A stretch of 64,000 nucleotides of DNA. Origin: Arcicella aurantiaca. GTDB lineage: Bacteria; Bacteroidota; Bacteroidia; Cytophagales; Spirosomataceae. Below, one piece after another: positions 8,928 through 30,971 of the stretch. The position numbers and the translations under genes are program-made. Below the pieces are notes generated by a model that made no database searches, was not told the DNA's origin, and saw only the letters and a list, made by a program, of their open reading frames with translations. The stretch lies in NCBI RefSeq assembly GCF_003148625.1, contig NZ_QGGO01000004.1:123995-187994 (forward strand), given 5' to 3'. Within the stretch, counting starts at the first letter, position 1, and every line of letters begins with the position of its first letter.

Positions 8928-8953
8928 TTTTTATTATAGGAATTGAGGGCAAA

Positions 8954-9538: not shown

Positions 9539-9668
9539 TTTGAAAATTGGTTATTGTTTGAGCAACAAACCTAATCCCAAAAATCTATATAAAAGCTGGT
9601 ATCAAACGGGTAGCAAAAAATCTGTTATTATATGATAAAACATACTAAATGTCCCCCTCTCAAAATGC

Positions 9669-9686
9669 TTTAAACCGCCTTTAAAC
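9669..9686. repeat. Two TTTAAAC copies outside the left island boundary
   Basis: TTTAAAC occurs at 9669-9675 and 9680-9686, with starts 11 bp apart. This is the same spacing as the GTTTAAAC pairs inside both ends of the island (9876/9887 and 35529/35540). Their position just outside the left attachment repeat suggests arm-type integrase sites that belong to the neighbouring, older element. Confidence 0.5.
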
Positions 9687-9690
9687 GAAA

Positions 9691-9713
9691 ATAGCACTCA
9701 AACTGAGTGCTAT
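9691..9713. terminator. Hairpin beside the left attachment repeat
   Basis: A perfect 10-bp inverted repeat (ATAGCACTCA / TGAGTGCTAT) with a 3-nt loop. It sits immediately 3' of the tRNA-Asp fragment when read on the minus strand, with a T-rich stretch following. It is best read as the old terminator of the tRNA-Asp gene, or of an earlier island end. The intact tRNA-Asp has its own unrelated hairpin at 35579-35612. Confidence 0.6.
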
Positions 9714-9715
9714 TT

Positions 9716-9763
9716 GCGGTCTGGACGGGACTCGAACCCGCGACCCCATGCGTGACAGGCATG
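9716..9763 (-). repeat. Left attachment repeat (3' fragment of tRNA-Asp)
   Basis: These 48 bp are identical to 35618-35665. Read on the minus strand they are the 3' part of tRNA-Asp from the anticodon arm through the T arm and acceptor strand. The sequence diverges at once on both sides: the D arm and 5' acceptor strand are absent and the CCA end is lost. It is therefore an attachment-site remnant, not a working tRNA gene. Integration into a tRNA 3' end typically leaves exactly this arrangement. Confidence 0.92.
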
Positions 9764-9874
9764 ATAATCCAACTTTTAGATACTTCTCAATATTTATTAC
9801 TATATTGATTTTCAGCAAGTTAAAGACCTTTTACTTTTTGTTATTTTTATTTATTTGTTAATTTTTAGTACATT

Positions 9875-9896
9875 TGTTTAAACTATGTTTAAACCA
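9875..9896. repeat. Candidate integrase arm site, left end
   Basis: A 22-bp sequence containing two GTTTAAAC palindromes with starts 11 bp apart, repeated exactly and in the same orientation at 35528-35549. It lies between the left attachment repeat and the integrase start (9918). Position and duplication at both island ends fit arm-type binding sites for the integrase N-terminal domain; they could also act in controlling int expression. Confidence 0.65.
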
Positions 9897-9917
9897 GAAA
9901 CAAAACAAATATAATAA

Positions 9918-11126
9918 ATGGCTACAATTGATGTTGTTCTTTTCACTTCAAAGGTATTAAAAAATGGCGAAAGTCCAATTATGGTTCGCTTGATTAAAGA
10001 CCGTAAATCAAAATATATTTCAGTTGGAGAAAGTTGTTCTAAAGCCCTTTGGGACGATAAGAAAAACCTTCCTTCTAAGAAGCATCCTTTGGCAAAAGAA
10101 ATGGTTATTAAAATTGAGAAAACCAAAATGGAAGCCAAACGCCTTCTAATGAAATTGGAGGATGAACAAACGGATTTTTCAGCAGAAGAATTTACCAAGA
10201 AATTAAAGAATCAAAGTAGAAAAACTACGGTGATTCAATTTCTTGATGAAGTGATTGCGGACTTACTCAAAGTTGATAAAGTTGGCAATGCAAATATTCA
10301 TAAAAATCTACGTAACGTTATTCTACGTTTCCGAAATCAAAAAGACTTTACTTTTTCAGAATTAGATGGAGCTTTCCTCAGAAAGTTTGAACAAGATTTT
10401 CGGGAACGTGGTGTCACTGAGGTTTCTATGAGTGTGTATTTTAGAACTTTACGGGCGTTGTATAATCGTGCGATAGTTGAAGATTTTGCAAAGAAAGAAT
10501 CAGACCCTTTTATAGATTTCAAGGTTTCCAAGTTTAATACTAAAACTAAAAAGCGAGCAATCACAAAAGAGGATATTTTAAAAATTGCATCACTACAAAT
10601 TGAAAAGGATACACAACTCTATCATTCCCAAAATGTATTTTTATATAGTTACTATTGTTCTGGGATGAATATCAGCGATATATTGGAATTGCAATGGAAA
10701 GATATTTCTCCTGACAATTTAATGGACTATGAGCGTAACAAAACTCATCAACAAATTAAAGTACAGTTACTACCTCCTGCTAAGAAGATTTTAGCCTATT
10801 ATAGAAAATATAGTGTAGGCGATTATGTTTTTCCTTACTTGGATAAAGCTAAACATAAAACGGAAGTACAAATCAATAACCGAATTAAAAAGGTTACTAA
10901 ACAGATTAACAAGGATTTAAAAACGTTGGCTCAAATGGCAGGAATTGACGTTGTACTAACGACATACGTTGCACGGCACACATTTGCGACTGTATTAAAA
11001 CGTAGCGGTGTTGAAATTTCTAAAATCAGTGAATTATTAGGGCATGATTCTGAGAAAACTACGAAAATTTATTTGGGTGATTTTGAGAATGAAGAATTGT
11101 ATGAGGCTACTTTGAATTTACTTTAA
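9918..11126 (+). CDS. int: Tyrosine recombinase (integrase), IntDOT-like
   Basis: Site-specific recombinase that would integrate and excise the island at tRNA-Asp. The 402 residues comprise an arm-binding N-terminal domain (about 1-95), a core-binding SAM-like domain (about 105-210) and a catalytic domain (about 215-400). The catalytic domain shows YVARHTFATVLKRSG (Arg and the following His), LLGHDSEKTTKIYLG (His and the nucleophilic Tyr), and a beta-hairpin region between them. The position of the first catalytic Arg, in YYCSGMNISDIL, is a Ser. To my knowledge IntDOT of the Bacteroides element CTnDOT also has Ser there, so this need not mean loss of activity. The gene sits just inside the left end and is followed after 9 bp by the DUF1016 gene. 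Confidence 0.93.
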   Translation: MATIDVVLFTSKVLKNGESPIMVRLIKDRKSKYISVGESCSKALWDDKKNLPSKKHPLAKEMVIKIEKTKMEAKRLLMKLEDEQTDFSAEEFTKKLKNQSRKTTVIQFLDEVIADLLKVDKVGNANIHKNLRNVILRFRNQKDFTFSELDGAFLRKFEQDFRERGVTEVSMSVYFRTLRALYNRAIVEDFAKKESDPFIDFKVSKFNTKTKKRAITKEDILKIASLQIEKDTQLYHSQNVFLYSYYCSGMNISDILELQWKDISPDNLMDYERNKTHQQIKVQLLPPAKKILAYYRKYSVGDYVFPYLDKAKHKTEVQINNRIKKVTKQINKDLKTLAQMAGIDVVLTTYVARHTFATVLKRSGVEISKISELLGHDSEKTTKIYLGDFENEELYEATLNLL

Positions 11127-11135
11127 AATAAGAAT

Positions 11136-12218
11136 ATGAATTTTGACCAACTTATTGAGAATATTGAATTAACGCACAATTTCTTCCAAGCTCGTGCGAG
11201 TAAACAAGTAGATGAAAATTTTACGCTAAGAAACTGGCTTATAGGCTATTACATTATTGAGTTTGAATTGAATGGACAAGACAGAGCCGTTTATGGGGCA
11301 AAAATAATTCTATCTATTGCCAAGCGAGTAAAACACATCAAAGGGTTGTCAAATAGCAATCTTTATACTTTTAAAGCATTCTATCAAGTCTATCCTCAGA
11401 TTTCGCAAACACTGTCTGCGAAATTGAAAGGCTCTGATTTACAATTATCGCCTTCAATTTTCCAGACACTGTCTGGAAAATTGGAAACTATTGAATCCTA
11501 CCCACCTGAAATCCTACTTTCACGGCTCAGTTTCTCTCATTTTGTAGAGTTAATTCAGTTAGATTCTGAGATTAAAAGACGGTTTTATGAAGTGCAAATC
11601 ATTCAAAGTTCTTGGTCAGTGCGAGCATTAGAAAGAGCAATAAATACACTCCTTTTTGAAAGAACTGGACTTTCAACAGATAAAAAAGGAGTTATTAAAA
11701 GCCATAAAGATAAAACACCAGAAACAGCAAAGGATTTACTTAGAAGCCCTGTGCTATTGGAGTTTTTAGGATTACAAGAAAGAAAAAAGATTTCTGAAAA
11801 TCAGTTAGAAACTGCAATCATTGACCATTTACAAGACTTTTTGATTGAAATGGGCAGAGGTTTTTGTTTTGAGGCACGCCAAAGAAGAATAACTTTTGAT
11901 AACGAACATTACTATATTGATTTGGTATTTTACCATAGAATTCTGCGGTGTAATATTTTGATTGACCTCAAAGTTGGAAAGTTTAGTCACGCTGACGCTG
12001 GGCAAATGAATTTCTATCTGAATTACTACAAGGATAATGAAATGACAGAACACGATAATCCACCTATCGGATTAATCTTGTGTGCTAATAAAAACGATAC
12101 TTTTGTGGAATACACATTGGGAGGAATAGATAACGATATTTTTGTTTCAAAATACCTCATTGAATTACCAAAAATTGAGGACTTGAAACGGTTAATTGAG
12201 ACGGATATGAAGAAATGA
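11136..12218 (+). CDS. DUF1016 (YhcG-type) PDDEXK nuclease-domain protein
   Basis: The 360-residue protein has the DUF1016 N-terminal helical domain (about 5-130; FTLRNWLIGYYIIEFELNG, and further on SNLYTFKAFYQVYP) and a C-terminal PD-(D/E)xK nuclease fold (about 240-335). Active-site candidates are Asp in YYIDLVFYHR and Asp-x-Lys in ILIDLKVGKF, followed by the typical AGQMNFYLNYY. Such proteins are widespread on plasmids, phages and islands; their role is not settled, with restriction- or recombination-related nuclease activity proposed. It starts 9 bp after the integrase stop, so it is probably co-transcribed with int. In place of the usual ExK the second motif reads DLK, which is common in this family as far as I recall. 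Confidence 0.85.
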   Translation: MNFDQLIENIELTHNFFQARASKQVDENFTLRNWLIGYYIIEFELNGQDRAVYGAKIILSIAKRVKHIKGLSNSNLYTFKAFYQVYPQISQTLSAKLKGSDLQLSPSIFQTLSGKLETIESYPPEILLSRLSFSHFVELIQLDSEIKRRFYEVQIIQSSWSVRALERAINTLLFERTGLSTDKKGVIKSHKDKTPETAKDLLRSPVLLEFLGLQERKKISENQLETAIIDHLQDFLIEMGRGFCFEARQRRITFDNEHYYIDLVFYHRILRCNILIDLKVGKFSHADAGQMNFYLNYYKDNEMTEHDNPPIGLILCANKNDTFVEYTLGGIDNDIFVSKYLIELPKIEDLKRLIETDMKK

Positions 12219-12297
12219 TTGTATCATAAAACACCAAAATACTCAAAATTAACTTTAAATTTGAAAACTGAAACTAAGGGAAAAAATATAAAAAATC

Positions 12298-12453
12298 ATG
12301 GGATTAGTAGAAGAACCTTTAAATATTGACTTGGTGGTTAATAGCAACGCCAATGCTCAGGAATTAGAAAAAATTGATTTAATGATTCAACAAATAAAGA
12401 TGAAAAATAAACCTTTGGCTCATAGAGTTAAAGCTAAAAAGATATTAGCTTAG
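12298..12453 (+). CDS. Small hypothetical protein (51 aa)
   Basis: A 51-codon frame starting with MGLVEEPLNIDLVV and ending in a basic stretch (HRVKAKKILA). It has no family I recognise. It is preceded by a purine-rich stretch, lies 79 bp after the DUF1016 gene and is followed 30 bp later by a good terminator hairpin. This makes a short coding unit plausible. A degraded copy of its 3' end and of the terminator follows at about 12723-12800, which suggests the segment was once duplicated. Confidence 0.5.
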   Translation: MGLVEEPLNIDLVVNSNANAQELEKIDLMIQQIKMKNKPLAHRVKAKKILA

Positions 12454-12483
12454 TTTGTATTTGCCAATGTATGAATTGTTGTG

Positions 12484-12505
12484 AAGCCACTTTCGAGTGG
12501 CTTTT
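12484..12505 (+). terminator. Rho-independent terminator after the 51-aa gene
   Basis: Perfect 8-bp stem AAGCCACT / AGTGGCTT with a TTCG tetraloop, then a short T run. It would end transcripts from int, the DUF1016 gene and the 51-aa gene. Confidence 0.8.
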
Positions 12506-13445
12506 CTGATTTAGTGCAATTTCCGAAAACTATTTTCGGAAATTATAAAGTGTATTATTGTCTATTCAAAGAAACTTGCAAGTTGTATTCCGTTTTGGCA
12601 TGATAAATCTTATGTAACTGAAAGTCTTTTTTAAAAGAAATTGACGAATATGCACACCACCAATATGATTTATAAATAATTAAGCATTTAGCCTTGTCGT
12701 TTTTATGTACCATTTATGTGGTAAAAAATAAACCTCTGGCTAATTGACATGGTACGTATTTACCATATATGAATTATAAAACTACTCGAAAGTGGCTTTT
12801 ACTCTAATAAATCTGTTGAAATAATTGGCGAAATAGGAAGACTTCTTTTATAAAAATTATCAAATAAAAATATTTACAGTCCTTAAAAAATTAACACTCC
12901 ACAAACTGCAACGTTTACTAAAAACTATAATGAGACAAATTATACAAAGTACATCGCAATCAAGTTAAATCATCCGCATTGACAATTACATTATAGAAAA
13001 AATTAGTATAAAACCCTCAGATGAAGACAGATAACTTCAATAAAATTACTGTTATAGACTCCGAATAATAAAAATCAAAAAAATAGCATCACATTCTGTA
13101 TTATATTCAATAATTATTTACTAAAATTGTAGATAATCAAAATCCTTCGATTGTCGTTCTATTTTCTTATTTCATAATTAAATCTTGATTGGGTATTTCA
13201 GAGGAATAATACACACTATTTCTTCAATTCTATTATTTAGCCTAAATTAAAGAGTCAATAATTATTTTAAGGAGAAGTTCACAGACAAACACCATACTTG
13301 CAGAGTTTGGGAAGTAATGATTATAACCATTTTCTCTAAAACAACCCTTATAATTTATTCATAAAAAATCACAAAGTTTTTTATAGAACTCCTGTTTAAA
13401 GAGAATACCTATTTTATCTTACTCCCAAAATAAAATACCTTTATA
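12506..13445. other. Long intergenic region upstream of the seven-gene operon
   Basis: Nearly 1 kb of AT-rich sequence without a convincing gene on either strand. It contains a small inverted repeat (TTTCCGAAAA...TTTTCGGAAA near 12522) and, at about 12723-12800, a decayed copy of the end of the 51-aa gene plus half of its terminator (GAAAGTGGCTTTT). The rest is unexplained and presumably holds the promoter and any regulatory sites of the operon at 13446. Such long leaders are unusual on this otherwise compact island. Confidence 0.55.
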
Positions 13446-14939
13446 ATGAGATACCTAATTCTAATAACAATTGCACTTCTAATTACCTCATGCACTACAC
13501 CTTGTGACACTCTTCAAGAGAAAATAACTGATGCAATAAAAACTGACAAACAAATTACATCAGAATCAATAATAACATTCAAAACATTTATCCTTAATAA
13601 TAAAGAAGATTTCAAAGATTGCCAACCCGATTTAATCGTTAACGATGCTGTTAATGATAATTCCTTATTGTCGCTAATTAAAAAGAATGAACTCTATATT
13701 AAGGTATCGAAGAAAAAAGAGGTTAGGATAGCTCTTACAGGAGAACAGACCATAATTGGAGCAATAATACCTAAGCTATATTTAGAGAGTAGTGGAAGTA
13801 TGTTCTTCTATGACAAACCAAATGGAGATGGACAATTCAAAACTGTAATAACTTCATTGTTAAACAATTTCGATGTTGTTTCTCCAGAAGCTAATAAAAT
13901 CTATGTTGTAAATGACAAGGTTTATCCAATAGATAGAACCTTTACTGATTTGGCAGAAAGCAATGATATTTTTAAATATACCAAAGGAATTGGGAATCCA
14001 AACTTTACAGATTTCAACAAAATATTCAAGACAATTTTAAATGACTTGAGTGAAGGGGAAGTAAGCATAATGTTTTCTGATTTAATTTACTCTACTCCTA
14101 ATATGACTGGTAAAAAAGATGAGAGAATTGTAATTGAAGCACAACAATTAACAGAGAATGTATTTCATGACTATGCACAAGATTATTCAGTTTTAGTATT
14201 AAAATTCAATGGTGATTACGATGGAAAATATTATGCTCATAATGCACCTCCTTTTGAATACAGAAATAAAACAAGACCATACTATGTAAGTATTTTTGCA
14301 AAAAATGCTACGATGAAGAAGTTCTTGGAGGATGATAATTATAAAGTATCAAGAGATTGGGTGAAATATACTGGTTTTGAAAATTTTCATTTATTCTCTA
14401 ATAATGTCAATCTTTTTAAGCCCTATTATACAGTATTACTACATGACAAGGATAATGAAGGGGACATCGAACAAGATGATGATGAAGTAGTATCAAAAAG
14501 TAAAGTTGTTAAGACTCTACAAAATGTCAGAGTAGATAGTGATAGTAAAAAGCTTACAATCAATGTGTTAGTTGATTTGTCTAAATTATATCTTCCTAAT
14601 GAGATTAAAGAAGACATTAATAACTATAAAGTAGAGTGTACCCAACCTTTTGTACTTGACAAAATAACGCCTATTAAACACACGGATGGTACTCATAAAT
14701 TTACATTAAGTAGTAGCCGTAATGTAGGAGGAAAACGTGATTTATATTTAAAGTTCAAGCGAAACTTTCCGCCCAAATGGATTGAAGAATCTAATACGAT
14801 TCACGACCAATCTGACAAAATTCCTAATTTTGAACATACCACTTATGGTATTAAAAATATGCTTGGAGGCATTGATAGAGCATATAATCCTAATCAAGAA
14901 GAATATTTTTATAAAATCACTTTACAATTAAATAATTAA
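13446..14939 (+). CDS. Lipoprotein with vWA-like domain (operon gene 1)
   Basis: A lipoprotein signal is clear: MRYLILITIALLITSC, with the lipobox Cys at residue 16. This predicts export and lipid anchoring, probably at the outer membrane. From about residue 105 the chain resembles a von Willebrand A domain with a metal-site (MIDAS) pattern: LESSGSM in place of DxSxS, a Thr in GNPNFTDFNKI and an Asp in SIMFSDLIYS. The first Asp appears to be Glu, so metal binding is uncertain. The C-terminal third (about 340-497) is beta-rich without a recognised family. It is the first gene of a tight seven-gene operon, with a 4-bp gap to the next gene. The fold assignment is by motif only. Confidence 0.7.
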   Translation: MRYLILITIALLITSCTTPCDTLQEKITDAIKTDKQITSESIITFKTFILNNKEDFKDCQPDLIVNDAVNDNSLLSLIKKNELYIKVSKKKEVRIALTGEQTIIGAIIPKLYLESSGSMFFYDKPNGDGQFKTVITSLLNNFDVVSPEANKIYVVNDKVYPIDRTFTDLAESNDIFKYTKGIGNPNFTDFNKIFKTILNDLSEGEVSIMFSDLIYSTPNMTGKKDERIVIEAQQLTENVFHDYAQDYSVLVLKFNGDYDGKYYAHNAPPFEYRNKTRPYYVSIFAKNATMKKFLEDDNYKVSRDWVKYTGFENFHLFSNNVNLFKPYYTVLLHDKDNEGDIEQDDDEVVSKSKVVKTLQNVRVDSDSKKLTINVLVDLSKLYLPNEIKEDINNYKVECTQPFVLDKITPIKHTDGTHKFTLSSSRNVGGKRDLYLKFKRNFPPKWIEESNTIHDQSDKIPNFEHTTYGIKNMLGGIDRAYNPNQEEYFYKITLQLNN

Positions 14940-14943
14940 ATAC

Positions 14944-15375
14944 ATGGACAGATTTCTGTTGCCTATTTATAAGGCTCTATTTAACAAACAATTAGTTGAA
15001 GACATCTACAATAGATTTTTGCCTACCGATTTTTTCTGGATATTGATAGCTGTTACATTGTCAGGATGTTTCTTCTTTTATAAAAACCCTCTTAGCTTTC
15101 GTACTTGGTTTTATAAAACCAGTCATTGGTTTACTACGGGCATAATAACAGCATTTATTTGCTTAGTATGGAGCATAATTATTTGCTTACTGCAAGCACA
15201 AAAAATGCTACCAAGAGATGAAAATGACCCGACTTTAGGAGAATACTTCGATAGTGGGTTCTCAACTTTCTTATCTTTCGGATTTGGGATTGGGGTTATT
15301 TCTTTTATTCTTTTTTCCCTGTTTTCAATCGGATTGCGTTATATTAGTTTAAACGCTCGTAAAACTCCTTTTTAA
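14944..15375 (+). CDS. Three-helix inner-membrane protein (operon gene 2)
   Basis: The 143-residue protein has three clear hydrophobic segments: about 29-46 (WILIAVTLSGCFFFY), 63-84 (GIITAFICLVWSIIICLLQ) and 108-131 (GFGIGVISFILFSLFSIGL). I recognise no family. It lies 4 bp after the vWA-like lipoprotein gene and 10 bp before the tubulin-like gene. It could anchor the cytoplasmic NTPases of the operon to the inner membrane. Membrane topology is inferred; function is unknown. Confidence 0.75.
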   Translation: MDRFLLPIYKALFNKQLVEDIYNRFLPTDFFWILIAVTLSGCFFFYKNPLSFRTWFYKTSHWFTTGIITAFICLVWSIIICLLQAQKMLPRDENDPTLGEYFDSGFSTFLSFGFGIGVISFILFSLFSIGLRYISLNARKTPF

Positions 15376-15385
15376 TCTAAATACT

Positions 15386-16870
15386 ATGTCGAACCTATAT
15401 ATTTTTGCTGTTGGTGGAACAGGCTCACGAGTTGTAAAAGCACTAACGATGTTGCTTGCATCTGGTGTAGAGATGAACAACACAAATACCATAATTCCAA
15501 TCATTGTTGACCCTCATAGAGGGAATAAAGACTTACAACGTACTGAAAATGTCTTAAAAGAATATCAAGAAATACGTAATAGTCTTGTTCAACAGCCTCA
15601 AAGTGGTGATTTTTTTTGCACTAAGATTGCTACTTTAAAGGATATGGTTGATAATGCAGACCTTATTGCAAGTAGCTATATATTCGAGCTTAAAGGTGTA
15701 GCAAATGAAAAATTCAAGGATTATATTGACTTTGCCAGTTTAGACGATTCTAATAAAGCTCTTGCCAGCTTATTATTTTCTGAAAAAAACTTAGACACTG
15801 AAATGGATATTGGCTTTGTTGGTAACCCTAATATTGGCAGTGTAGTGCTTAATCAGTTTAAAGAGTCGAACGAATTTCAATATTTTGCTTCTAACTTTAA
15901 AGCTAATGACAGAATTTTTATTATTAGTTCTATTTTTGGAGGTACTGGTGCCGCAGGGTTTCCAATTATACTTAAAAACATTAGAGGAGCAACTAATCAA
16001 GTTCCCAATAGTAGCTTTTTAAATAATGCAATAATTGGAGCTGTCTCTGTGATGCCCTATTTTGGGGTTTTACCATCAACGGACAAAACTATTGACAAAG
16101 CTACTTTTATCTCAAAAACTAAGTCTGCCCTACAATATTATACCAAAGGAGTAAATCCCTCTGTAAACAAAATGTATTACATCGGTGAAGCCCATAATAA
16201 AGATTATCAAAATGACCCAGGAGAAGGAGGGCAAAAAAATGATGCACACTTTGTGGAAATGGCAGCAGCTCTGAGTATTGTAGATTTCATGAATACCCCT
16301 GATGCTATGTTACAAGTCAATTTGGGACAGCCAACAAACCCTACTTTTAGCGAATTCGCAATAAAAAATGATACTGACCCTATCAAAATGACAGACATTA
16401 GTGCTGCAACTAATCGAATTATAAGTTTACCTCTTTCTAAAATGACATTCATGAAAAAATACATGGATGCACAAATTAGTAAATCGTTGGGAAACGTTAG
16501 CTGGAGTAAATCTGCACCTACGATTGATAAAGACTTCACTACAGGTTCTTTTTATAAAACATTAGAATCTTTTTTAAATAGCTACAAAGAGTGGTTAATC
16601 GAAATGGGACGTAACCAACGAGCCTTCCAACCATTCCTTCTTGGAAATGAAAGTTTAGCAGACACTATTAATCAAGTAAAACCAAGTGCATCAAGTGGTT
16701 TAAAATCTTTTTTTACCCCTGACGTTGACTTCAATTCGTTTGATGAGTTTTTGACAAAAGAGAATAAAAAAGAAGTCTCTTTTGTAAATGCTGAAGTGAA
16801 ATTCTTATCTCTTTTCAACAAAGGGACACAACAATTACTAAAAGAAAGATTTTTCAATTTATTCTCATAA
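15386..16870 (+). CDS. Tubulin/FtsZ-like NTP-binding protein (operon gene 3)
   Basis: The 494-residue protein has the layout of the tubulin/FtsZ superfamily. A glycine-rich strand-loop occurs at residues 5-16 (YIFAVGGTGSRV), and a second loop matching the tubulin signature at 181-193 (SSIFGGTGAAGFP), where FtsZ has GGGTGTG. The length suits the tubulin-like families found in bacterial gene clusters rather than cell-division FtsZ. It would be a cytoplasmic GTPase, possibly polymerising. It is followed after 3 bp by the actin-like ATPase gene. A tubulin-type and an actin-type NTPase as direct neighbours, beside a vWA-like protein, recalls published predictions of tubulin-family membrane-remodelling clusters. 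It could also be a non-polymerising Rossmann-type GTPase. Confidence 0.75.
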   Translation: MSNLYIFAVGGTGSRVVKALTMLLASGVEMNNTNTIIPIIVDPHRGNKDLQRTENVLKEYQEIRNSLVQQPQSGDFFCTKIATLKDMVDNADLIASSYIFELKGVANEKFKDYIDFASLDDSNKALASLLFSEKNLDTEMDIGFVGNPNIGSVVLNQFKESNEFQYFASNFKANDRIFIISSIFGGTGAAGFPIILKNIRGATNQVPNSSFLNNAIIGAVSVMPYFGVLPSTDKTIDKATFISKTKSALQYYTKGVNPSVNKMYYIGEAHNKDYQNDPGEGGQKNDAHFVEMAAALSIVDFMNTPDAMLQVNLGQPTNPTFSEFAIKNDTDPIKMTDISAATNRIISLPLSKMTFMKKYMDAQISKSLGNVSWSKSAPTIDKDFTTGSFYKTLESFLNSYKEWLIEMGRNQRAFQPFLLGNESLADTINQVKPSASSGLKSFFTPDVDFNSFDEFLTKENKKEVSFVNAEVKFLSLFNKGTQQLLKERFFNLFS

Positions 16871-16873
16871 ACC

Positions 16874-19800
16874 ATGACCAAGGTAATAGCATATCATAAC
16901 AATGCCAATGGCGACCACTGGTTTAAGTCAAGCCAATATGGAAAAAGTGAAATCGAGGCAATCAAAGACCCCGAAGGCGGAAATACATTAAACCCTCCTA
17001 CCTCAATCCCAAGTCCATTCGCTCGGTTTGACTTGGTTAGAGCGGCTTTTGCTAATTTATCTCGAAATCCTAATTTAAAAGGAACTCCCAACGATGAACG
17101 TTTAGTGTCTGAAGCATTGGATGTAGCTCTTTTATTTTTTAACTATGATAAAATCAAGGATAAGGTTAAAATTATTCCTTGGAGTGTTGATAAAAATAAT
17201 GGCAATTTGGGAAACCTTCTGAACCCAAAATCATCTGAAGGTCATAAGCGTTTGGGGAAGGTACTCGAATTATACCTTAATCAAGATGCTAATATCTATA
17301 ACTTTGATAAGCTTAACCGACTTTTTATTTTACAATATCAAGGTAAAATTGTTGGCGGAACTTCGCCTTCTACTTTATTTTTTTCTTCTGCGAATGATTT
17401 GTCAGCTTTAGGATTAGCATTTGATACTCAGTTATTTGACAAGACTTACACTCCACTTTACAAAAGAGATATTGATTATCAAAAATTTTGGTATTGCCTG
17501 AAACTTCAAAATAACTTTAGAACTTATTTTAGAGAAATTGACGACTATTTGGAAAATAGCTTTAAGGCTCTTGAGAAACATAATCCTACTTTATATCATC
17601 AACATATTTGTTCACAAAACGGGGAATTATTATTAAAGCAAGGAGATTATAGCCAATTGTTTGAACAATTAAATGCAGGACAGCAAGGAAACATAGTAGA
17701 GGTATTAGATATTCCAATTTGTAAACGAAAGGTCGTAGCTTCTGATGTAGAAAAAATTAGTGATTTTGTAATTGATACAACAAAGTATAGAAAGTTATTT
17801 CCAAATGAACCAATTCCCTTGGTTTTACAGAATAACTACCACAAATCTCTACAATACACTCAAGCTAAATGGAAAAATGGATTAGAAATACCTTCATTTG
17901 TCGCAGAAGATTGGCGTAAAAATGAAAGACAGTTACCTGCTCAAAGTGAAAATTACCCTTGGCTTACCGTAAGTGATTTACTCGAACCATACCTTATTCG
18001 TGTTAAATACCCTATTAATACTCAAGATTTCTGGGTAGGTAACTTATACAATTTGCCCGATAATGATAAAGCTGGTTATCTGTTACCAATTAAAAATACG
18101 TTTTTTGAGTTTTTTGATATAGAAGATTTAAAGAACGGGAACGGGAAAGTAAAAGTACAAATCAAAGAAGGTCATGGGCATTCTATTGACGTAAGCCTAC
18201 AAATTCCCATAAAGGGAGATGCTTCTAAGCTTCGTAATGAATACATTACTTTAGAGCGAAGTTATATATTTATTGACCCTAATGAACCTCTAACTGAACC
18301 TAACCTTAAAGAAAATATAGGATATATTGTTGAGCAAACTTTCGGTTTATCAATGTATCCCTTCATAAAATCTGGTAATGAAAAAATTAATGCTGACTAT
18401 CGTGTCCAACTAATCGAAGATTTAGACCAGTATGATAGTATTAAGTTGCAGTTTTATGAGCTTTCAGAAGTGAAAGAAGTGAATACTCTTGAAAAAAAAC
18501 GAAGTGATGCGGGCGACTCTGTAATTTCTAAATACTATGCTTTAGAAAATGAATTTGATTATATCTCATTTGATATTTCAAATAATAACTTATCATTAAA
18601 AGCTATAATGATTCCGAATTGGAATTTATACAATGGTGGAACAGATACACTAAGTTTTGCCATAGATTTTGGAACAACTAATACACATATTGAATTCAAG
18701 AAAAACAATTCAGAATCATCTCCCTTTCAATTTGGTAGAAGACAAGTAGCCTTAATGATGGATTTGAATTACTATCAGAATTCACTTGCGGGTTTTAATG
18801 AGCAAATTAAAAGCCGATTTGATTTTGAATTTTTACCAATTATGATTGGGCAGGATATTGAATATAGCTTTCCTTTAAGGTCAGTAATAGCCCAGCCCAA
18901 AGACTTTAGTGGACAAGCACATACTCTTATTGATATAAATACTCCATTTTATTATGAAAAAAGAAATACTCGTGATAGAGATAGAATTACTCCAAACTTA
19001 AAATGGATTCCAAGAGATGCAAAATCAGAACTACAAGTATATCATTTTTTAGAAGAGCTTATCATGATGATAAGAAATAAGGTCTTATTGGAAGGGGGAA
19101 ATCTTAGTGCAACCAAAATTTACTGGTTCTACCCTTCAAGTATGACTCGTGGTAGAAAAGGTAAGCTTAAAGAAAAATGGGACGAATTATTTAGAAAACA
19201 TATTACAAACCGTTCAGATGCCAAACCAATAGAAATATTGGAATCTATCGCACCATTTTATCATTATCAAAATGTCAATACGCAAATAAATACATCATCC
19301 GCCGTATCTATTGATATTGGTGGTGGAAGTTCTGACATAGCTATTTATAGAGACAATCGTCCAGTTTATTTAACATCATTCCGTTTTGCAGGAAATGCCA
19401 TATATGGCGATTTTTTGCTTGAACGTGGTGCAAAAAATAATGGATTTGTCAATAGATACAAGCAATATTTTGAAGAACTATTAGAAACCAATACTGATTT
19501 AGAGAATTTTAATAATAAATTATTAGAGGATAATTGCTCTGAAGAAATTATTTCATTTTGGTTTGGACTCGAAAAAAACCGGCACAGCACAAATGATAAA
19601 AACCGATGGTCTTTCAATAAGCAACTATCAAAAGATGATAATTTACGTATCGTATTTTTATTGTTTTATACTGCCAGTGTCTATCATGTTGTTAAATTAA
19701 TGGTTGCTAATAACTTCGATAAACCACGTACAATTACTTTTAGTGGTACAGGTGCAAAAATGTTAGATATTATTACTGGAGATGCCCAGATTTTGGAAGA

Positions 19801-20305
19801 ATTTACACAAAAAATAATAGAACAAGTTTATGGTACAGTATATGGAAATCGAGAAAAATTAGTCGTTTATAAAGGCTCTACTCCCAAAGAAGCAACCTGC
19901 AAAGGAGCTTTATTAATGGATGTAACACAAATAGAAAAGCCATTATCGCCTTCTGTGTATGCAGGGGTGCATGAAAATAAATTTGAAAGTCTTAGATATG
20001 AAGACCTTCAAAATGCAGAAATAATTGATGCAATTTTACAAGAGACAGAGAACTTCATACAGTTTTTTCTAAACATGAATAAGCAGTTTAGTTTTGAAAA
20101 TAATTTTGATATATCAAAAGAAGCTATTGTTCTTACAAAGAATGTTTTGAATGACGCAGATTTAAGGAATTTTTTAAACAAAGCAATTGAAGCTAAAAAG
20201 AAAGGACTTACAGAAATAGATACAGAGTTAGAAGAAACACTTTTCTTCTATCCTATTATGGGAACTATGAATCAATTAGCATTTGAAATCTCAAATCAAC
20301 TGTAA
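16874..20305 (+). CDS. Large protein with actin/Hsp70-type ATPase domain (operon gene 4)
   Basis: The 1143-residue protein has an unrecognised N-terminal half (about 1-590) and a C-terminal actin/Hsp70-fold ATPase (about 595-1000). All three nucleotide-site motifs are visible: phosphate-1 FAIDFGTTNTH (about 595-605), phosphate-2 SIDIGGGSSDIAIY (about 812-825) and the adenosine motif TFSGTGAKMLDII (about 954-966). No signal peptide or membrane segment is seen, so it should be cytoplasmic. The size and C-terminal ATPase are reminiscent of SrfB-type proteins found next to tubulin-like genes in some Proteobacteria; that link is tentative. It starts 3 bp after the tubulin-like gene, indicating tight co-expression. 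It may be an ATP-driven partner or chaperone of the tubulin-like protein. Confidence 0.8.
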   Translation: MTKVIAYHNNANGDHWFKSSQYGKSEIEAIKDPEGGNTLNPPTSIPSPFARFDLVRAAFANLSRNPNLKGTPNDERLVSEALDVALLFFNYDKIKDKVKIIPWSVDKNNGNLGNLLNPKSSEGHKRLGKVLELYLNQDANIYNFDKLNRLFILQYQGKIVGGTSPSTLFFSSANDLSALGLAFDTQLFDKTYTPLYKRDIDYQKFWYCLKLQNNFRTYFREIDDYLENSFKALEKHNPTLYHQHICSQNGELLLKQGDYSQLFEQLNAGQQGNIVEVLDIPICKRKVVASDVEKISDFVIDTTKYRKLFPNEPIPLVLQNNYHKSLQYTQAKWKNGLEIPSFVAEDWRKNERQLPAQSENYPWLTVSDLLEPYLIRVKYPINTQDFWVGNLYNLPDNDKAGYLLPIKNTFFEFFDIEDLKNGNGKVKVQIKEGHGHSIDVSLQIPIKGDASKLRNEYITLERSYIFIDPNEPLTEPNLKENIGYIVEQTFGLSMYPFIKSGNEKINADYRVQLIEDLDQYDSIKLQFYELSEVKEVNTLEKKRSDAGDSVISKYYALENEFDYISFDISNNNLSLKAIMIPNWNLYNGGTDTLSFAIDFGTTNTHIEFKKNNSESSPFQFGRRQVALMMDLNYYQNSLAGFNEQIKSRFDFEFLPIMIGQDIEYSFPLRSVIAQPKDFSGQAHTLIDINTPFYYEKRNTRDRDRITPNLKWIPRDAKSELQVYHFLEELIMMIRNKVLLEGGNLSATKIYWFYPSSMTRGRKGKLKEKWDELFRKHITNRSDAKPIEILESIAPFYHYQNVNTQINTSSAVSIDIGGGSSDIAIYRDNRPVYLTSFRFAGNAIYGDFLLERGAKNNGFVNRYKQYFEELLETNTDLENFNNKLLEDNCSEEIISFWFGLEKNRHSTNDKNRWSFNKQLSKDDNLRIVFLLFYTASVYHVVKLMVANNFDKPRTITFSGTGAKMLDIITGDAQILEEFTQKIIEQVYGTVYGNREKLVVYKGSTPKEATCKGALLMDVTQIEKPLSPSVYAGVHENKFESLRYEDLQNAEIIDAILQETENFIQFFLNMNKQFSFENNFDISKEAIVLTKNVLNDADLRNFLNKAIEAKKKGLTEIDTELEETLFFYPIMGTMNQLAFEISNQL

Positions 20306-20338
20306 ATCAATAAGTTAATTCAGTAACTAACCTACTCT

Positions 20339-21406
20339 ATGAAAAAGAAAATTCCTTTTTTATTATTAATGATAGCTTTGAGCCTTAGTAGTAAGGCTCA
20401 AAGTGATACTATTCAACTCAAAAAAATAGAAGATAAAGTTAAAAAGTATGATGCGGTATTTAAGCAGCATGACTCATTAAAAACTATACTCAATACTATA
20501 AAAAAACAATCAAACGATACTACAAAAACCAAGATTAATAGTGCAATAATAGATTCATTGGTAAGCTCTTATAAAAGTCTTGGAATGACTACAATCAATT
20601 TGATTGGATATAAACTTCAAAAGCCACATATTGTAGAGGATAAAAATATACCCGTAGAAGATGATATAAGTTTAGATTCACTTATTAAACATAAGGACGT
20701 ATTAGGTTTAGGTACTTTAGGTGGTCTTTTATTATTTATTTCAATATGGTTAATCGCTAAAAATATGAGTCAAAATTCATTAAAAAATCGTCAAGTTGAA
20801 TGGAACATAGATAAAATAAAATCTTTCGGAATTGAAATAAGAAATGTAGAAGAATTTTTAATAAAAATTGTAACTGTACTTGAAAGTGAATCAGGGAATA
20901 ATAAAGATTATTTACTAAAAATATTACAAGGAGAACAGCTTGATAAGCTTGAGTTTGAGTCCAAAATCGAAGAAAGTAAAATAATAACCCCTTCTTTTAT
21001 AACCACTATTGATGCTATTGAGGAAACACCCCTTCCAGTTATTGAAAAATCTGAGTTACCTAATGTGGTAGAAGAAAAAATCATATATCTAAGTAACCCT
21101 GACACTTCAGGCTTTTTTAGTGAAGATACGATTTTGGAAAGACCAGACAGTTACACGTACTATCAAATAATAATAATTGGAGAGTCCCAGACAAACCCCA
21201 AGATACATTTTATTGCATCTAAGAATGATAGAGCCTTAAAAAATATTATTGATAATCGAACAAAGCACATTGTACCTGTATGTGATGCCTTCAACGGTTA
21301 TGATAGCCAAAAACATAACTCTATCAATGAATTAGAAGCTGGAATAGTTATCAAAGAAAATAACGGCTGGCGAATAAAGAATAAGATTAAAATTGAATAC
21401 GTGTAG
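20339..21406 (+). CDS. Single-pass membrane protein with coiled coil (operon gene 5)
   Basis: The 355-residue protein starts with a signal peptide (MKKKIPFLLLMIALSLSSKA, cleavage probably just after). A periplasmic segment follows with coiled-coil tendency (IQLKKIEDKVKKYDAVFKQ), then a transmembrane helix at about 121-140 (LGLGTLGGLLLFISIWLIAK). The remaining 215 residues would be cytoplasmic and end in a small beta-rich domain (YQIIIIGESQTNPKIHF...IVIKENNGWRIKNK). No family is recognised. The topology suits a link between periplasmic parts of the machine and the cytoplasmic NTPases encoded just upstream. The gap to the previous gene is 33 bp and to the next 49 bp. Confidence 0.75.
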   Translation: MKKKIPFLLLMIALSLSSKAQSDTIQLKKIEDKVKKYDAVFKQHDSLKTILNTIKKQSNDTTKTKINSAIIDSLVSSYKSLGMTTINLIGYKLQKPHIVEDKNIPVEDDISLDSLIKHKDVLGLGTLGGLLLFISIWLIAKNMSQNSLKNRQVEWNIDKIKSFGIEIRNVEEFLIKIVTVLESESGNNKDYLLKILQGEQLDKLEFESKIEESKIITPSFITTIDAIEETPLPVIEKSELPNVVEEKIIYLSNPDTSGFFSEDTILERPDSYTYYQIIIIGESQTNPKIHFIASKNDRALKNIIDNRTKHIVPVCDAFNGYDSQKHNSINELEAGIVIKENNGWRIKNKIKIEYV

Positions 21407-21455
21407 TAAAAGGACTACATAAAACACCAACATATTACCAATCTATAAATCTATT

Positions 21456-22229
21456 ATGAAGTATTTCATTTTAAAACAAGATAAGCCCACCAAAGAGTCA
21501 TTTACCATAGAAGAACTTCGAGAATTTAATATTACTCGTGATACTAAGGTATGTCCAGATGTGCAGGGTAATGTTACAGATGAACAGCCTTATCCTTATT
21601 ATACAGAGGCGGAAAAGTTTGAAGAACTTGCTCAGTTATTCTCAGAACCCGAACCAAATATACCTCTCCCTATTATTCTTTCAGAAATTGAAGAAAAGAC
21701 TTATGATATAAAATCAGCTCAAAATGTTTCTATTGGAGCCGAAGAAATTATAAAAATACCGCCCATACCACCAATTGAGACAGAAGGAAATAATCCCCCA
21801 CCACCCAAGGCTAAGATTATTTGGGTGTATGCAGCTGGGATTTCATTAGTGTTACTGTTAGCAGGCTACTGGTGGACTAATTCGCTACGAGGGTCTGGGG
21901 GAACAGGCTCCACAATAGATACTTCTTCCCCAAAACTCGTCGAAGAAGCTCCAAAAATCACTAATTGCGAAGCAAAATTTGATTCCCTTTTGAAGATTGG
22001 TGAACAAAATATTGAACAAGCTAACGGAGAATCATTAACAGCTTTTAGTTTGATGAAAGACTGTAAAGACTGTGCTGATAAAGAAAAAGTCAAAACCTTA
22101 AAAGCTAAATTTAATTCCCAAATAACCACTGACGAAGCTATAATCAACGACCCTGATATTCAAAAGAGAAACACTCAATTTAAAGAGGCTATCAAGTTGT
22201 TAGACGAAATAATTACACCGAACCAATAA
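21456..22229 (+). CDS. Single-pass membrane protein, GYF_2-like N-terminus (operon gene 6)
   Basis: The 257-residue protein has a short N-terminal cytoplasmic domain whose pattern (KYFILKQDKPTKESFTIEEL...DTKVCPD) resembles the GYF_2 module, a small Pro-binding domain. A Pro-rich linker follows (PPIPPIETEG, PPPPKAK), then one transmembrane helix at about 123-142 (IIWVYAAGISLVLLLAGYWW). About 110 residues would be periplasmic, with three or more Cys (ITNCEAKFDSLLK, MKDCKDCADK). The Cys-Asp-x-Cys pattern and the CxxxFDSLLKxG motif recur in the next gene (DCKPQFDSFVKLANQ), so the two periplasmic regions are probably related and may interact. Four bp separate the genes. The GYF assignment is weak. 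Confidence 0.7.
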   Translation: MKYFILKQDKPTKESFTIEELREFNITRDTKVCPDVQGNVTDEQPYPYYTEAEKFEELAQLFSEPEPNIPLPIILSEIEEKTYDIKSAQNVSIGAEEIIKIPPIPPIETEGNNPPPPKAKIIWVYAAGISLVLLLAGYWWTNSLRGSGGTGSTIDTSSPKLVEEAPKITNCEAKFDSLLKIGEQNIEQANGESLTAFSLMKDCKDCADKEKVKTLKAKFNSQITTDEAIINDPDIQKRNTQFKEAIKLLDEIITPNQ

Positions 22230-22233
22230 TGGA

Positions 22234-24537
22234 ATGAAAAATTATACTACATATTTATTATTATTCGTATCAGTTTATTTCAGTTTTTCGGTTTTTTCAC
22301 AAAAAAAATATGAAAATAATAACACAATAGATACTTATACACTATTCAAGGGTAAGGGAGACGCAAACTATGCTAACGGTGATTATTTAAAAGCAATTTC
22401 TTATTATACCTACTGTATAAATACAATAGATAATTCAGATAGAGAACCTCTTTTACGATTAATTCAGAATTCAAAGAATTTATTTAAACTTCGAGAAGAG
22501 GCAACGACAGCTTTCATTCAAAAAGACTATCAAACTGCTAAAAATATTTGTCAAAAAATTCTAAAAATAAATCCAGATATTACTACCAAAAAATTATTGG
22601 AAGGAATTGAATCTGTCATAAATACTAAGCATGATAGCTTCTTGGAAAACTTCATAAAGAAAGGCGACGAGCGATTGAAGGAGGGGAAATTTGAGGAAGC
22701 AAGAGCCTTTTATCGTGTTATTACTCAATCAAATGACGATTATAAAAAAGCGTATGTCAAAACACAACTCAAAAAGATTGAAGAAAATATAGTTGTCCCA
22801 CCATCAGCAGACTGTAAACCTCAATTTGACAGCTTTGTTAAGTTAGCCAACCAACAATACGGCGAAAGCCAATTCAAAAAATCAGTAAAAAATTACACTC
22901 AAGCAAAAAATCTCCAGTGTAATCTCAATACAAGATGGATTGATGATGCTATATTTTACTGCAACAGAAGTATTTACCTCTTGCAGTTAATTGGTGATTT
23001 AGAAAACAATAATGACGAATCTAATATAAACAGAGTTTTAGATGCTTACCAAAAGCTGACTTTTAAATATGCCCCTCAGTCTCAAGGATTAAAAAAAGAT
23101 TTTTATGAATACTGTAAAGGAAGATTTTTAAAAAATCCATGTGGTGGCAAATCAGCAGAATACAGTTCTAAAATGAACTCTTTAGATGAAAAATTATTCA
23201 TCACAGATGGTATTAAATCTCTTTTAGAAACTTGCAATAATAAGCCAAGTAATGATAAGGATACTACTATACTTGTTAGAGACTGTAAGGAGCAATTTAA
23301 ACAACTGGAGAGAATAAAAACCGAAATTAAAGAATCAGTTTTAAATATAGAATCTGGGAATTATACCTTAGCAGAGCAAAGATTAAAAGATGCTGATAAA
23401 AAAATTACAACCTTGGATTGTATCTCTAAAAAAGACTCTACCGAACTGCCTATAAGAATTTCGACCTTATTAGATGAAATAACAAAAAAGAATAGCCAAA
23501 AACTATGTAGAGAGAAATCTCAGAAATCTCTATTGCAAGCTGACTCTCTATTTACAAATGGTCGTTGCAAAGGAAGTTTTGAGATACTAAAAGATATAAC
23601 TGTAAACTGTTTAAGTAAAACAGACTCCATAAGATATAATACGCTATCAACAAGAGTAAGATGCTGTATCAATGACACTTTATTTATTCAGCACATGAAA
23701 TTGAATCAAGCAAAATATCTTGATAGTACAAGACTTAGTTATGCAATTAGAGAAAGAACAGATGTTTGTTACTATATTAAAGAAGCTGTAAAATTCACCT
23801 GCACAAAAGAAGATAGTCTCAAACTTGAAAGTCAATACAAAGATTGTCGTTGTAAGAATTTCAAGGAGAATTGTCCTGAAATTCCATTAGCTATTGCACA
23901 AGGAAACAATTGTGATACGACTACAAAGTTCAGAGTAAGGTTTGAGTTTTTTATAGGAGGTTCATTAGGAACGTTTAAACCAATTTATCCTCTTGCAGTT
24001 TCAGCAGATGATGGATATAATACCACTTTTGATTTAGGAAAGCGTTTTGGTTTTAGGGTAAATCTTATGAGTTATAAAAAGATTCTGGATTTAAGAGTTG
24101 GAATAAGTAGTGAAAGCTTTTATTATACTGTAAAAGATTCAAAATTGACCTTTCCAAGCACTATTTCAAGTATGTCAGTATTAAATGGAAATATTGATTT
24201 TAAATTTCATACACTCCCAACCTGTCCCTCAAAGATTAGGTATTATGTTGCCCCAGGTTTAATAGTTAGTAGATATAATACAAACACACCTAATATCCCT
24301 TTTTTAGAAGACTACACAAACAGAACCTTCAATGACAAAATATATGGTGGATTCTCAGTTGCGTTAGGATTAGAAAAAACAAAAGGTAGTGGGAAATACG
24401 GCTATTCCATTGAATTATTTTACAGCCAGTTGGGTACATTGTACAGTAAAGACGCTAATAAATTTTTAAAACCTTGGGAAAGTACAACTGCACAAATAAA
24501 TTTTGTGGGGATAAATATTGGAGCTTTCATATTTTAA
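22234..24537 (+). CDS. Outer-membrane beta-barrel protein with TPR-like repeats (operon gene 7)
   Basis: The 767-residue product has a signal peptide (about 1-22, ending SVFS). A long helical periplasmic region follows (about 30-560) with TPR-like units (GDANYANGDYLKAISYYTYC; GDERLKEGKFEEARAFYRVI; ANQQYGESQFKKSVKNYTQA) and many Cys residues in pairs. The C-terminal part (about 570-767) is a beta-barrel of alternating hydrophobic strands, beginning FRVRFEFFIGGSLGTF and ending with the aromatic outer-membrane signature NIGAFIF. It is the last gene of the operon. The combination makes it the likely outer-membrane platform for the lipoprotein (gene 1) and the inner-membrane linkers (genes 5, 6). 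The Cys-rich repeats suggest disulfide stabilisation. Confidence 0.8.
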   Translation: MKNYTTYLLLFVSVYFSFSVFSQKKYENNNTIDTYTLFKGKGDANYANGDYLKAISYYTYCINTIDNSDREPLLRLIQNSKNLFKLREEATTAFIQKDYQTAKNICQKILKINPDITTKKLLEGIESVINTKHDSFLENFIKKGDERLKEGKFEEARAFYRVITQSNDDYKKAYVKTQLKKIEENIVVPPSADCKPQFDSFVKLANQQYGESQFKKSVKNYTQAKNLQCNLNTRWIDDAIFYCNRSIYLLQLIGDLENNNDESNINRVLDAYQKLTFKYAPQSQGLKKDFYEYCKGRFLKNPCGGKSAEYSSKMNSLDEKLFITDGIKSLLETCNNKPSNDKDTTILVRDCKEQFKQLERIKTEIKESVLNIESGNYTLAEQRLKDADKKITTLDCISKKDSTELPIRISTLLDEITKKNSQKLCREKSQKSLLQADSLFTNGRCKGSFEILKDITVNCLSKTDSIRYNTLSTRVRCCINDTLFIQHMKLNQAKYLDSTRLSYAIRERTDVCYYIKEAVKFTCTKEDSLKLESQYKDCRCKNFKENCPEIPLAIAQGNNCDTTTKFRVRFEFFIGGSLGTFKPIYPLAVSADDGYNTTFDLGKRFGFRVNLMSYKKILDLRVGISSESFYYTVKDSKLTFPSTISSMSVLNGNIDFKFHTLPTCPSKIRYYVAPGLIVSRYNTNTPNIPFLEDYTNRTFNDKIYGGFSVALGLEKTKGSGKYGYSIELFYSQLGTLYSKDANKFLKPWESTTAQINFVGINIGAFIF

Positions 24538-24950: not shown

Positions 24951-24981
24951 TTCTAATAGAATTCACAAAATGATTATACAA

Positions 24982-25007
24982 CCCGAACCCGAAAAGTTCG
25001 GGTTTTT
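24982..25007 (+). terminator. Strong Rho-independent terminator
   Basis: Stem CCCGAAC / GTTCGGG with a 7-nt loop followed by TTTTTT. It ends the short transcript that begins near 24855, upstream of the DIP1984-like gene. Confidence 0.85.
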
Positions 25008-29099: not shown

Positions 29100-29159
29100 A
29101 ATGTAATGATTTTATTTGACGCTTATTTTAGAGAACAATAAGCATTTTAACCAATACTA

Positions 29160-30365: not shown

Positions 30366-30380
30366 TTGCTATACAGAAAT

Positions 30381-30863: not shown

Positions 30864-30971
30864 CGGCTTTAAAAACCTACGATACATGAGGTACGAAACC
30901 TTCCTTCTCAGTACGTCCGAAACGATTAGGTAGTACAAAAATACGATTTAAAATCAGATTATCCAATCATT

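Follow-up and report, generated by a model that had tools for sequence, protein, structure and literature searches.

Predicted tubulin- and actin-fold partners in a conserved membrane-linked operon of Bacteroidota, with exchangeable ZorAB-like genes in relatives

Introduction

Bacterial tubulin- and actin-fold proteins mostly act in separate roles, FtsZ with FtsA being the textbook exception. Among the diverged relatives of FtsZ, FtsZl1 was described with vWA, GTPase, kinase and OmpA partners, and membrane remodelling was predicted for it (Makarova and Koonin 2010, PMC2875224). The prediction was based on gene context, and a reviewer asked how a cytoplasmic FtsZ-like protein acts with periplasmic and outer-membrane partners; the alignment published there includes a Bacteroides caccae member (PMC2875224). 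The vWA link of FtsZl1 was repeated in a 2015 paper (PMC5898192), and a later tree paper set the Tubulin_2 group apart (PMC9871819). Here we analyse a window of 64,000 nucleotides from Arcicella aurantiaca (contig NZ_QGGO01000004.1), in which a seven-gene operon (genes A to G) encodes a protein probably of the FtsZl1 kind (gene C) next to a giant protein with a predicted actin fold (gene D), and compare it with its relatives and with described systems. Coordinates are those of the window unless a locus is named.

Related components occur in other settings. GTPase-centred conflict systems with tubulin and HSP70 have been reported (Kaur et al. 2020, PMC7159879); as presented there, a DO-GTPase together with GAP1 defines these systems, and tubulin and HSP70 form separate themes, found mainly in Firmicutes and Actinobacteria. 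ZorAB of Zorya depends for its function on binding to peptidoglycan, on the tail of ZorA and on the flow of ions (PMC11890865). vWA proteins coupled to TolQ-like pentamers are the subject of ‘Origin and Evolution of Bacterial Periplasmic Force Transducers’ 2025 (PMC12204202), which does not mention tubulin; the stator survey PMC12505986 mentions neither tubulin nor FtsZ.

Results

Conserved core of the operon

A profile scan of a genome collection with C gave at least 475 relatives; 80 of them, together with three viral contigs, make up the 83 loci compared here. A scan of the collection with a single sequence found no relatives. Genes A, B, C and D, usually with E, are a conserved core in Bacteroidota. 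The order ABCD is kept in 72 of the 83 loci (median gaps of 6.5, 37 and 22 bases), and of the 82 loci in which C was called, 80 have D after it at a distance of up to 400 bp, the exceptions being L098 and L040. A and B were each recognised in 76 of the 83 loci and an E-like protein in 69. F and G were found in no other fetched locus. Of 99 related genomes searched for F, its own alone matches, leaving the other 98 without a counterpart, and G has no full-length relative, the matches in 7 other genomes of the 99 covering only 65-162 residues of its N-terminal part. With F lacking counterparts and G only partly matched, both confined to this copy, A to G as one conserved unit was rejected. The conserved gene order expected by the initial annotation, a model's reading of the window's letters and open reading frames (ORFs), thus holds for A to D, usually with E, and not for F and G; its complete seven-gene machine from cytoplasm to outer membrane gives way to that smaller core.

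Some copies depart from this layout. L157 (genome G455) has A, B and C without an adjacent D, so a D neighbour is not absolute. In Candidatus Thermochlorobacter (L098, the contig of L017; 6925-12414 in L017 coordinates), C is interrupted and D absent, and A, B and the accessory genes H, I and J (below) remain, which suggests a decaying or minimal form. An ORF between B and C in L148 (3551-3931) and L149 (3606-3974) has, by eye, the look of a 23S intervening-sequence-type four-helix bundle.

Predicted folds of the core proteins

On its predicted structure, C is a true but strongly diverged tubulin fold. Its Pfam matches to Tubulin_2 (PF13809; 19.3 bits against a cut-off of 27) and Tubulin are both under cut-off, and at E<=0.01 Tubulin is matched by 44 of 44 aligned sequences of the family and Tubulin_2 by 42 of the 44. 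Two C proteins from Cyanobacteria were also compared with Tubulin_2; one is above the cut-off (40.8 bits) and the other scores 19 bits. An AlphaFold model from a 44-sequence alignment reached a predicted local distance difference test (pLDDT) score of 88.6 and a predicted template-modelling (pTM) score of 0.91. Each of the 50 rows listed by Foldseek is an entry for FtsZ, CetZ or tubulin/microtubules, with E-values down to 1.7e-5, and VIA gave a best Z of 15.2 (root-mean-square deviation 3.2, 196 residues aligned). The two glycine loops, T1 (GGTG, 10-13) and T4 (FGGTG, 184-188), are invariant in 44 of 44 sequences. Helices of the model at 340-362, 388-408, 449-462 and 469-488 are short for an extended coiled coil.

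Residues of about 590-1025 of D are modelled as an actin/MreB-type fold. The AlphaFold model (41-sequence alignment) has a pLDDT of 83.9 and a pTM of 0.73, with residues 1-46 mostly poor. Foldseek ranked MreB entries at the top (E 7e-10), and VIA placed MamK and MreB at Z 12.0 (residues 591-1019), with many Hsp70 and actin chains just lower, mostly over about 590-1025. Three nucleotide motifs, DFGTTNTH (598-605), DIGGGSSD (814-821) and SGTG (957-960), which we take to be the phosphate-1, phosphate-2 and adenosine motifs, are retained with small changes in 13 of 13 aligned sequences, including three from Cyanobacteria; the N-terminal motif SIPSPFAR is retained more loosely in the same 13. The N-terminal half of the model (the first ~590 residues) has no assigned fold, and the C-terminus is helical. 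Pfam names neither an Hsp70 nor a substrate-binding domain in D. SrfB/SrfABC, considered as a possible relative of D, was dropped, with Pfam SrfB unmatched at E<=1. Because PDB profile searches were weak by themselves (best E 0.14 for C and 0.01 for D; no match for A), the fold assignments of C and D rest on the models. These models agree with the tubulin loops and the three actin/Hsp70 motifs that had initially been read in the 494- and 1143-residue proteins.

The other core proteins are predicted to be membrane-associated or exported. Gene A has a lipobox and is therefore a lipoprotein, and its ExSxS motif and later Asp are invariant in 17 of 17 aligned sequences; the classical DxSGSM form (D?SGSM) is found in two of three cyanobacterial relatives. 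Since Pfam names no vWA domain in any of the 17 sequences at E<=0.1, the vWA reading of A rests on these motifs: the lipoprotein with vWA-like residues of the metal ion-dependent adhesion site, as first annotated, is upheld at the level of residues and not at that of a named domain. B has three predicted transmembrane (TM) segments, and three or four were predicted from hydropathy in 78 of 84 relatives. E has an N-terminal signal-like stretch (by eye), and its N-terminal part is probably periplasmic and its C-terminal part cytoplasmic. Hydropathy thus agrees with the three-TM B and the single-pass E and F of the first reading. A motif search found no Walker-A motif in A to G, and PADLOC gave no match to them at E<=1 except a ZorA-type match to B at 0.27.

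Distribution

In an even sample of the phylum, the single C sequence matches 14 of 395 genomes and the C profile 13; a 76-residue match of the single sequence in G298 was treated as false, the profile not having retained it. Among nearer genomes 32 of 99 match C. The core operon is present in a genome of the same genus (G396), an Arcicella metagenome-assembled genome (Prado083, L038) has the same gene order, and carriers of the core include named strains of Spirosoma, Pedobacter, Flavobacterium and Parabacteroides.

Beyond the phylum, four cyanobacterial plasmid records match C. In the three inspected, C and D are adjacent and genes that correspond in size to A, B, C and D are grouped, with A on the opposite strand in L166; the annotations read hypothetical or unknown proteins, and C is called tubulin-like in one. 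Profiles built without Cyanobacteria match there with E-values, computed on a small protein set, of 6e-13 to 5e-7 for A, about 1e-57 to 1e-59 for C and 1e-51 to 1e-38 for D; the B profile has no match on the three plasmids. The single D sequence matched no cyanobacterial plasmid, although the D profile does match there. Among 72,556 plasmid records, five match C, one of these being a replicon of 1.77 Mb, and a single record matches D; C has no match among 50,697 phage records. Three viral-class contigs of IMG/VR (L108, L109 and L110) carry the core, with C 33-40% identical, as prophage cargo or misclassified host DNA; in L109 and L110 (~8305-16911) it is accompanied by the motor genes described below.

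Motor-like and other accessory genes

ZorAB/MotAB-like genes, absent from the initial annotation, follow the core in many relatives. After E come H (~430-570 amino acids; 750 in L053) and then I (~200-260 amino acids). They were counted in the 65 loci that extend 4 kb or more beyond D, a sample rich in Prevotellaceae and Spirosoma, both without the pair; H is present in 28 and both H and I in 26. The H of L151 was scored as motor-bearing, its I gene lying just past the 6.5-kb limit. By Pfam, I matches MotB_plug at the cut-off in L091, with OmpA just under, and H matches MotA_ExbB just under the cut-off in two of three proteins scanned. In PADLOC, H matches ZorA2 down to E 4.3e-8 and I matches ZorB1 down to E 7.8e-16; because PADLOC contains defence models only, these matches do not favour Zor over Mot. 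The MotB-type ion-binding Asp of the plug helix is invariant in 19 of 19 I proteins. For H, three or four TM segments were predicted in 33 of 40 proteins, ahead of a long C-terminal region.

The motor genes come and go among relatives. In a genome-wide search for ZorB/MotB-like proteins, an I profile found the gene in 4 of 10 chosen genomes. The window’s genome gave no match, and neither did two others or the three genomes from the genus to which L015 belongs, the C of L015 being nested among Spirosoma. No ZorC-, ZorD- or ZorE-like gene was seen, and these are absent from the PADLOC families matched at 1e-15 by the 110 neighbouring proteins described below. A quick tree of 84 C proteins, in which long branches meet, was used only to count motor changes and to place the window’s 18-row group; it omits L016, L017, L024-L026, L098, L150, loci with less than 4 kb past D and loci without a C of 440-560 amino acids. 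H is present in 40 of its rows and changes state at least seven times, and the motor is therefore an exchangeable module. The window C falls in the 18-row group (Shimodaira-Hasegawa-like approximate likelihood ratio test, SH-aLRT, 97), whose eight other non-Spirosoma members all have H; the motor was thus probably present in the ancestor of this group and lost here and in Spirosoma.

Other genes after the core are varied. They encode lipoproteins that resemble retropepsins (J; the one scanned matches Pfam gag-asp_proteas), proteins that by eye look SNase-like (K), and single-pass proteins bearing a WG-repeat head (L; Pfam, one scanned), a zinc-ribbon-like head (M, by eye; one TM segment in 22 of 22) or a DnaJ-like head (N, by eye). 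F looks like one more exchangeable single-pass protein of this accessory kind. The GYF_2-like head initially proposed for it was not confirmed, with no Pfam family at E<=1. For G, the TPR (above the Pfam cut-off) and the Cys-rich character (22 Cys) of the first description hold; its outer-membrane barrel was not confirmed, no family being matched, and its export and barrel-like C-terminal region were judged by eye only.

Further genes were seen at single loci. One genome of the window’s genus has two different full motor-bearing operons (L150/L038 and L151), both with an extra protein of 580-590 amino acids between H and I. Downstream of a C-D-type pair in L026 (1172-3063, minus strand) are TerD-like proteins of 188, 188 and 216 amino acids (by eye), separated from the pair by an ORF of 482 amino acids, a possible link to tellurite/Ter stress. 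In Flavobacterium akiainvivens (L054, 18136-21426), a 1097-amino-acid ORF with a Cas9-like start (by eye) stands just 3' of a full motor-bearing operon and reaches the end of the locus.

Genomic setting and defence genes

The seven ORFs of the window copy run in one direction over 13446-24537 (497, 143, 494, 1143, 355, 257 and 767 amino acids), with gaps of 4, 10, 3, 33, 49 and 4 bases from A to G (Table 1), in line with the seven co-directional genes and gaps of 3-49 bp first noted. Hairpins of the terminator-like type number 10 sites in the region against 5.1 expected by chance. Type I restriction-modification genes occur on both sides of the operon-bearing part (3306-7149 and 26724-32444), and with the integrase and YhcG-type nuclease upstream they make the island with restriction systems, described from the start, true of the window copy.

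Table 1 Features of the operon and its immediate surroundings in the Arcicella aurantiaca window
Feature	Position	Strand	Description	Basis
Gene A	13446..14939	+	Lipoprotein, vWA-like by motif (ExSGSM replaces DxSxS; E114, S116, S118, D212)	ORF, lipobox, alignment
Gene B	14944..15375	+	Small membrane protein, three predicted TM segments	ORF, hydropathy
Gene C	15386..16870	+	Tubulin/FtsZ-fold GTPase-like protein (predicted), FtsZl1/Tubulin_2 kind	Pfam, AlphaFold, Foldseek, VIA
Gene D	16874..20305	+	1143 amino acids; predicted actin/MreB-fold ATPase-like domain, ~590-1025	AlphaFold, Foldseek, VIA, motifs
Gene E	20339..21406	+	Single-pass membrane protein, TM 121-139	Hydropathy
Gene F	21456..22229	+	Single-pass protein, TM 119-137	Hydropathy
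Gene G	22234..24537	+	TPR/Cys-rich protein	Pfam TPR_2, Cys count
Tyrosine recombinase	9918..11126	+	Arm-DNA-bind_5, Phage_int_SAM_5, Phage_integrase; upstream context, outside the machine	Pfam
YhcG-type PD-(D/E)XK nuclease	11136..12218	+	PADLOC PDC-S02; upstream context	Pfam, PADLOC
Terminator-like hairpin, 5' of A	12483..12504	+		Hairpin scan
Terminator-like hairpin with T tail, 3' of G	24980..25004	+	9 pairs, 5 G-C	

The neighbourhood was also compared across relatives. From 118 candidates, 110 adjacent proteins of named relatives were scanned with PADLOC, the control being 66 proteins further out in the same 10-kb flanks and hence not independent. The adjacent proteins matched four families at E<=1e-15 (by 3, 2, 2 and 1 members) and the further-out proteins 21 families (1 or 2 members each); these are members per family, and the distinct matching proteins number 3-8 of 110 versus 2-22 of 66. 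There is no sign of enrichment of defence families beside the operon in this comparison, and defence inferred from the neighbourhood, as in the initial annotation, was rejected, although the window copy itself lies among restriction genes. A flanking gene is common to 52 of 55 pairs of Spirosoma loci, 6 of 6 of Bacteroidaceae and 6 of 10 of Pedobacter/Mucilaginibacter, and to 15 of 1131 pairs between groups. The shared Spirosoma flanks point to a stable chromosomal place there. Within some genera the operon seems to be passed on stably, and between genera it seems to have moved.

Discussion

The operon is probably a system of the FtsZl1 kind, and its near-constant actin-fold partner and exchangeable ZorAB-like motor were not found in print. 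It resembles FtsZl1, in which a diverged FtsZ/tubulin protein shares an operon with a vWA protein, membrane proteins and, in several genomes, proteins with an OmpA domain (PMC2875224). In the main text of that paper actin appears only as background and MotB is absent (PMC2875224). Unlike the FtsZl1 systems presented there, A to G have no recognised P-loop GTPase or kinase, and C has 494 amino acids, versus about 1000 with a coiled coil in the FtsZl1 majority. A search of titles and abstract openings in the open-licence PubMed Central literature found no account of the C-D pair or of the adjacent motor. The initial view that this was not a described system therefore needs division: FtsZl1 with vWA and OmpA was published in 2010 and the tubulin/HSP70/vWA/GTPase class in 2020, and it is the actin-fold partner and motor that were not found in print.

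Likenesses to the other systems are partial. The operon resembles the DO-GTPase/GAP1 systems, in which homologues of tubulin, members of the HSP70 family and vWA proteins outside the cell occur close to membranes (PMC7159879); unlike them, A to G have no Walker-A motif, and a downstream ORF with both regex motifs was found in 3 of 80 loci, two of these being the H and I proteins themselves. Many relatives resemble Zorya (PMC11890865): their ZorA-like protein continues into a long C-terminal region, and their ZorB-like protein combines the plug Asp with an OmpA-type domain. They differ in that no ZorC-, ZorD- or ZorE-like gene was seen, and the I profile found no motor in the window’s genome. 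For the TolQ-like force transducers, a link of vWA proteins to ion-driven motors that work across the envelope has been published; in the systems presented in that paper the vWA protein joins the motor via a TM helix, whereas A is a lipoprotein beside separate MotA-/MotB-like genes (PMC12204202).

We favour, at a probability of about 0.48, a reading in which A-B-C-D(-E) is the core of a machine attached to the membrane, its two NTPases forming a scaffold for a complex that spans the envelope. Contact between C and D, their polymerisation and the turnover of GTP and ATP would all be part of this. C and D would form a nucleotide-controlled scaffold or mixed filament in the cytoplasm. From their topology, the three-TM B and the single-pass E could hold this scaffold at the inner membrane and link it to lipoprotein A and to exported partners that would meet peptidoglycan or the outer membrane. 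In the fuller form, H and I would supply a peptidoglycan-tied, ion-driven motor whose long cytoplasmic tail could reach the scaffold; in the Arcicella aurantiaca copy, F and G may stand in place of the absent motor pair. The work done would most likely be organising, loading or pulling on the envelope, in remodelling or transport, rather than cutting foreign DNA. The envelope-linked machine with two NTPases of the initial annotation is to this extent retained, with predicted tubulin and actin folds and membrane and exported partners. The Myxococcus AglRQS gliding motor unites actin-fold MreB, an ion motor and the vWA adhesin CglB in one envelope machine; it is not known to have a tubulin, and the comparison is a functional one.

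Several observations weigh against this scaffold. The structure matches of C in Foldseek have low TM-scores (0.20-0.28 of the query), and FtsZl1 was reported to have no recognisable T6-H7 elements (Makarova and Koonin 2010, PMC2875224). The fold of D is also the Hsp70 fold, so D may have a chaperone role. H is absent from 37 of the 65 loci, and the H of L109, one of the three scanned, has no MotA match in Pfam. Carriers are patchily spread (the profile matches 13 of the 395 genomes sampled from the phylum), flanks are shared by fewer of the pairs in Prevotellaceae (70 of 253) and in Flavobacteriia (8 of 28), and the Arcicella aurantiaca copy is set among restriction genes.

A bolder version, which we regard as rather unlikely, is a composite cytoskeleton. 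The tubulin GTPase and giant actin ATPase would be obligate partners docked at the inner membrane and coupled, in the full form, to a ZorAB-type motor and the vWA lipoprotein, so that filament state and torque jointly act on the envelope. It would be an ancient Bacteroidota/Cyanobacteria module in which the motor has been swapped for other envelope parts.

Anti-phage defence is a weaker explanation, at little better than one chance in five. Here the envelope part would sense a phage attacking the wall or membrane, and the C-D scaffold would pass the signal on so as to halt infection; such a system would be like Zorya, with effectors that are cytoskeletal and not nucleases. The match of H and I to ZorA and ZorB models points this way, as far as a defence-only library with no preference of Zor over Mot allows, as do the patchy distribution, the position of the window copy, which has type I restriction genes on either side and an integrase and a YhcG nuclease upstream, and the interpretation of tubulin/HSP70/vWA sets as conflict systems (Kaur 2020, PMC7159879). 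The conserved core, however, has no recognised nuclease or other toxic effector, PADLOC matches none of A to G beyond the ZorA-type hit to B, and the relatives’ adjacent genes give no sign of enrichment, while flanks are shared in Spirosoma.

Slightly less probable is a chaperone-type stress system that varies on FtsZl1 or on the tubulin/HSP70 systems with a DO-GTPase. D would work in it like an Hsp70 ATPase, with C for its assembly partner, and the two would survey membrane proteins together with the vWA lipoprotein. Hsp70 nucleotide-binding domains are among the top structure matches of D; DnaJ-like genes (family N) stand beside the operon in L091 and TerD-like proteins follow C-D in L026, both by eye. 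Yet MreB and MamK rank no lower than Hsp70 among the structure matches, D has no Hsp70 or substrate-binding domain by Pfam, and the lack of a Walker-A motif in A to G means that this is not a DO-GTPase architecture. A selfish or plasmid-type segregation device, using tubulin- and actin-like filaments and carried by mobile elements, is very improbable: cyanobacterial copies are on plasmids, three viral-class contigs carry the core and an integrase adjoins the window copy, but plasmid records rarely match C or D and phage records never match C, flanks are shared in Spirosoma, and a vWA lipoprotein with membrane partners is ill-suited to the task.

For the envelope scaffold that we favour, the near-constant actin-fold neighbour and the ZorAB-like genes would offer a concrete answer to the question put by the reviewer of FtsZl1, namely a cytoplasmic scaffold together with a peptidoglycan-tied motor. 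Tubulin- and actin-fold proteins as fixed partners in one operon would, if true, be unusual.

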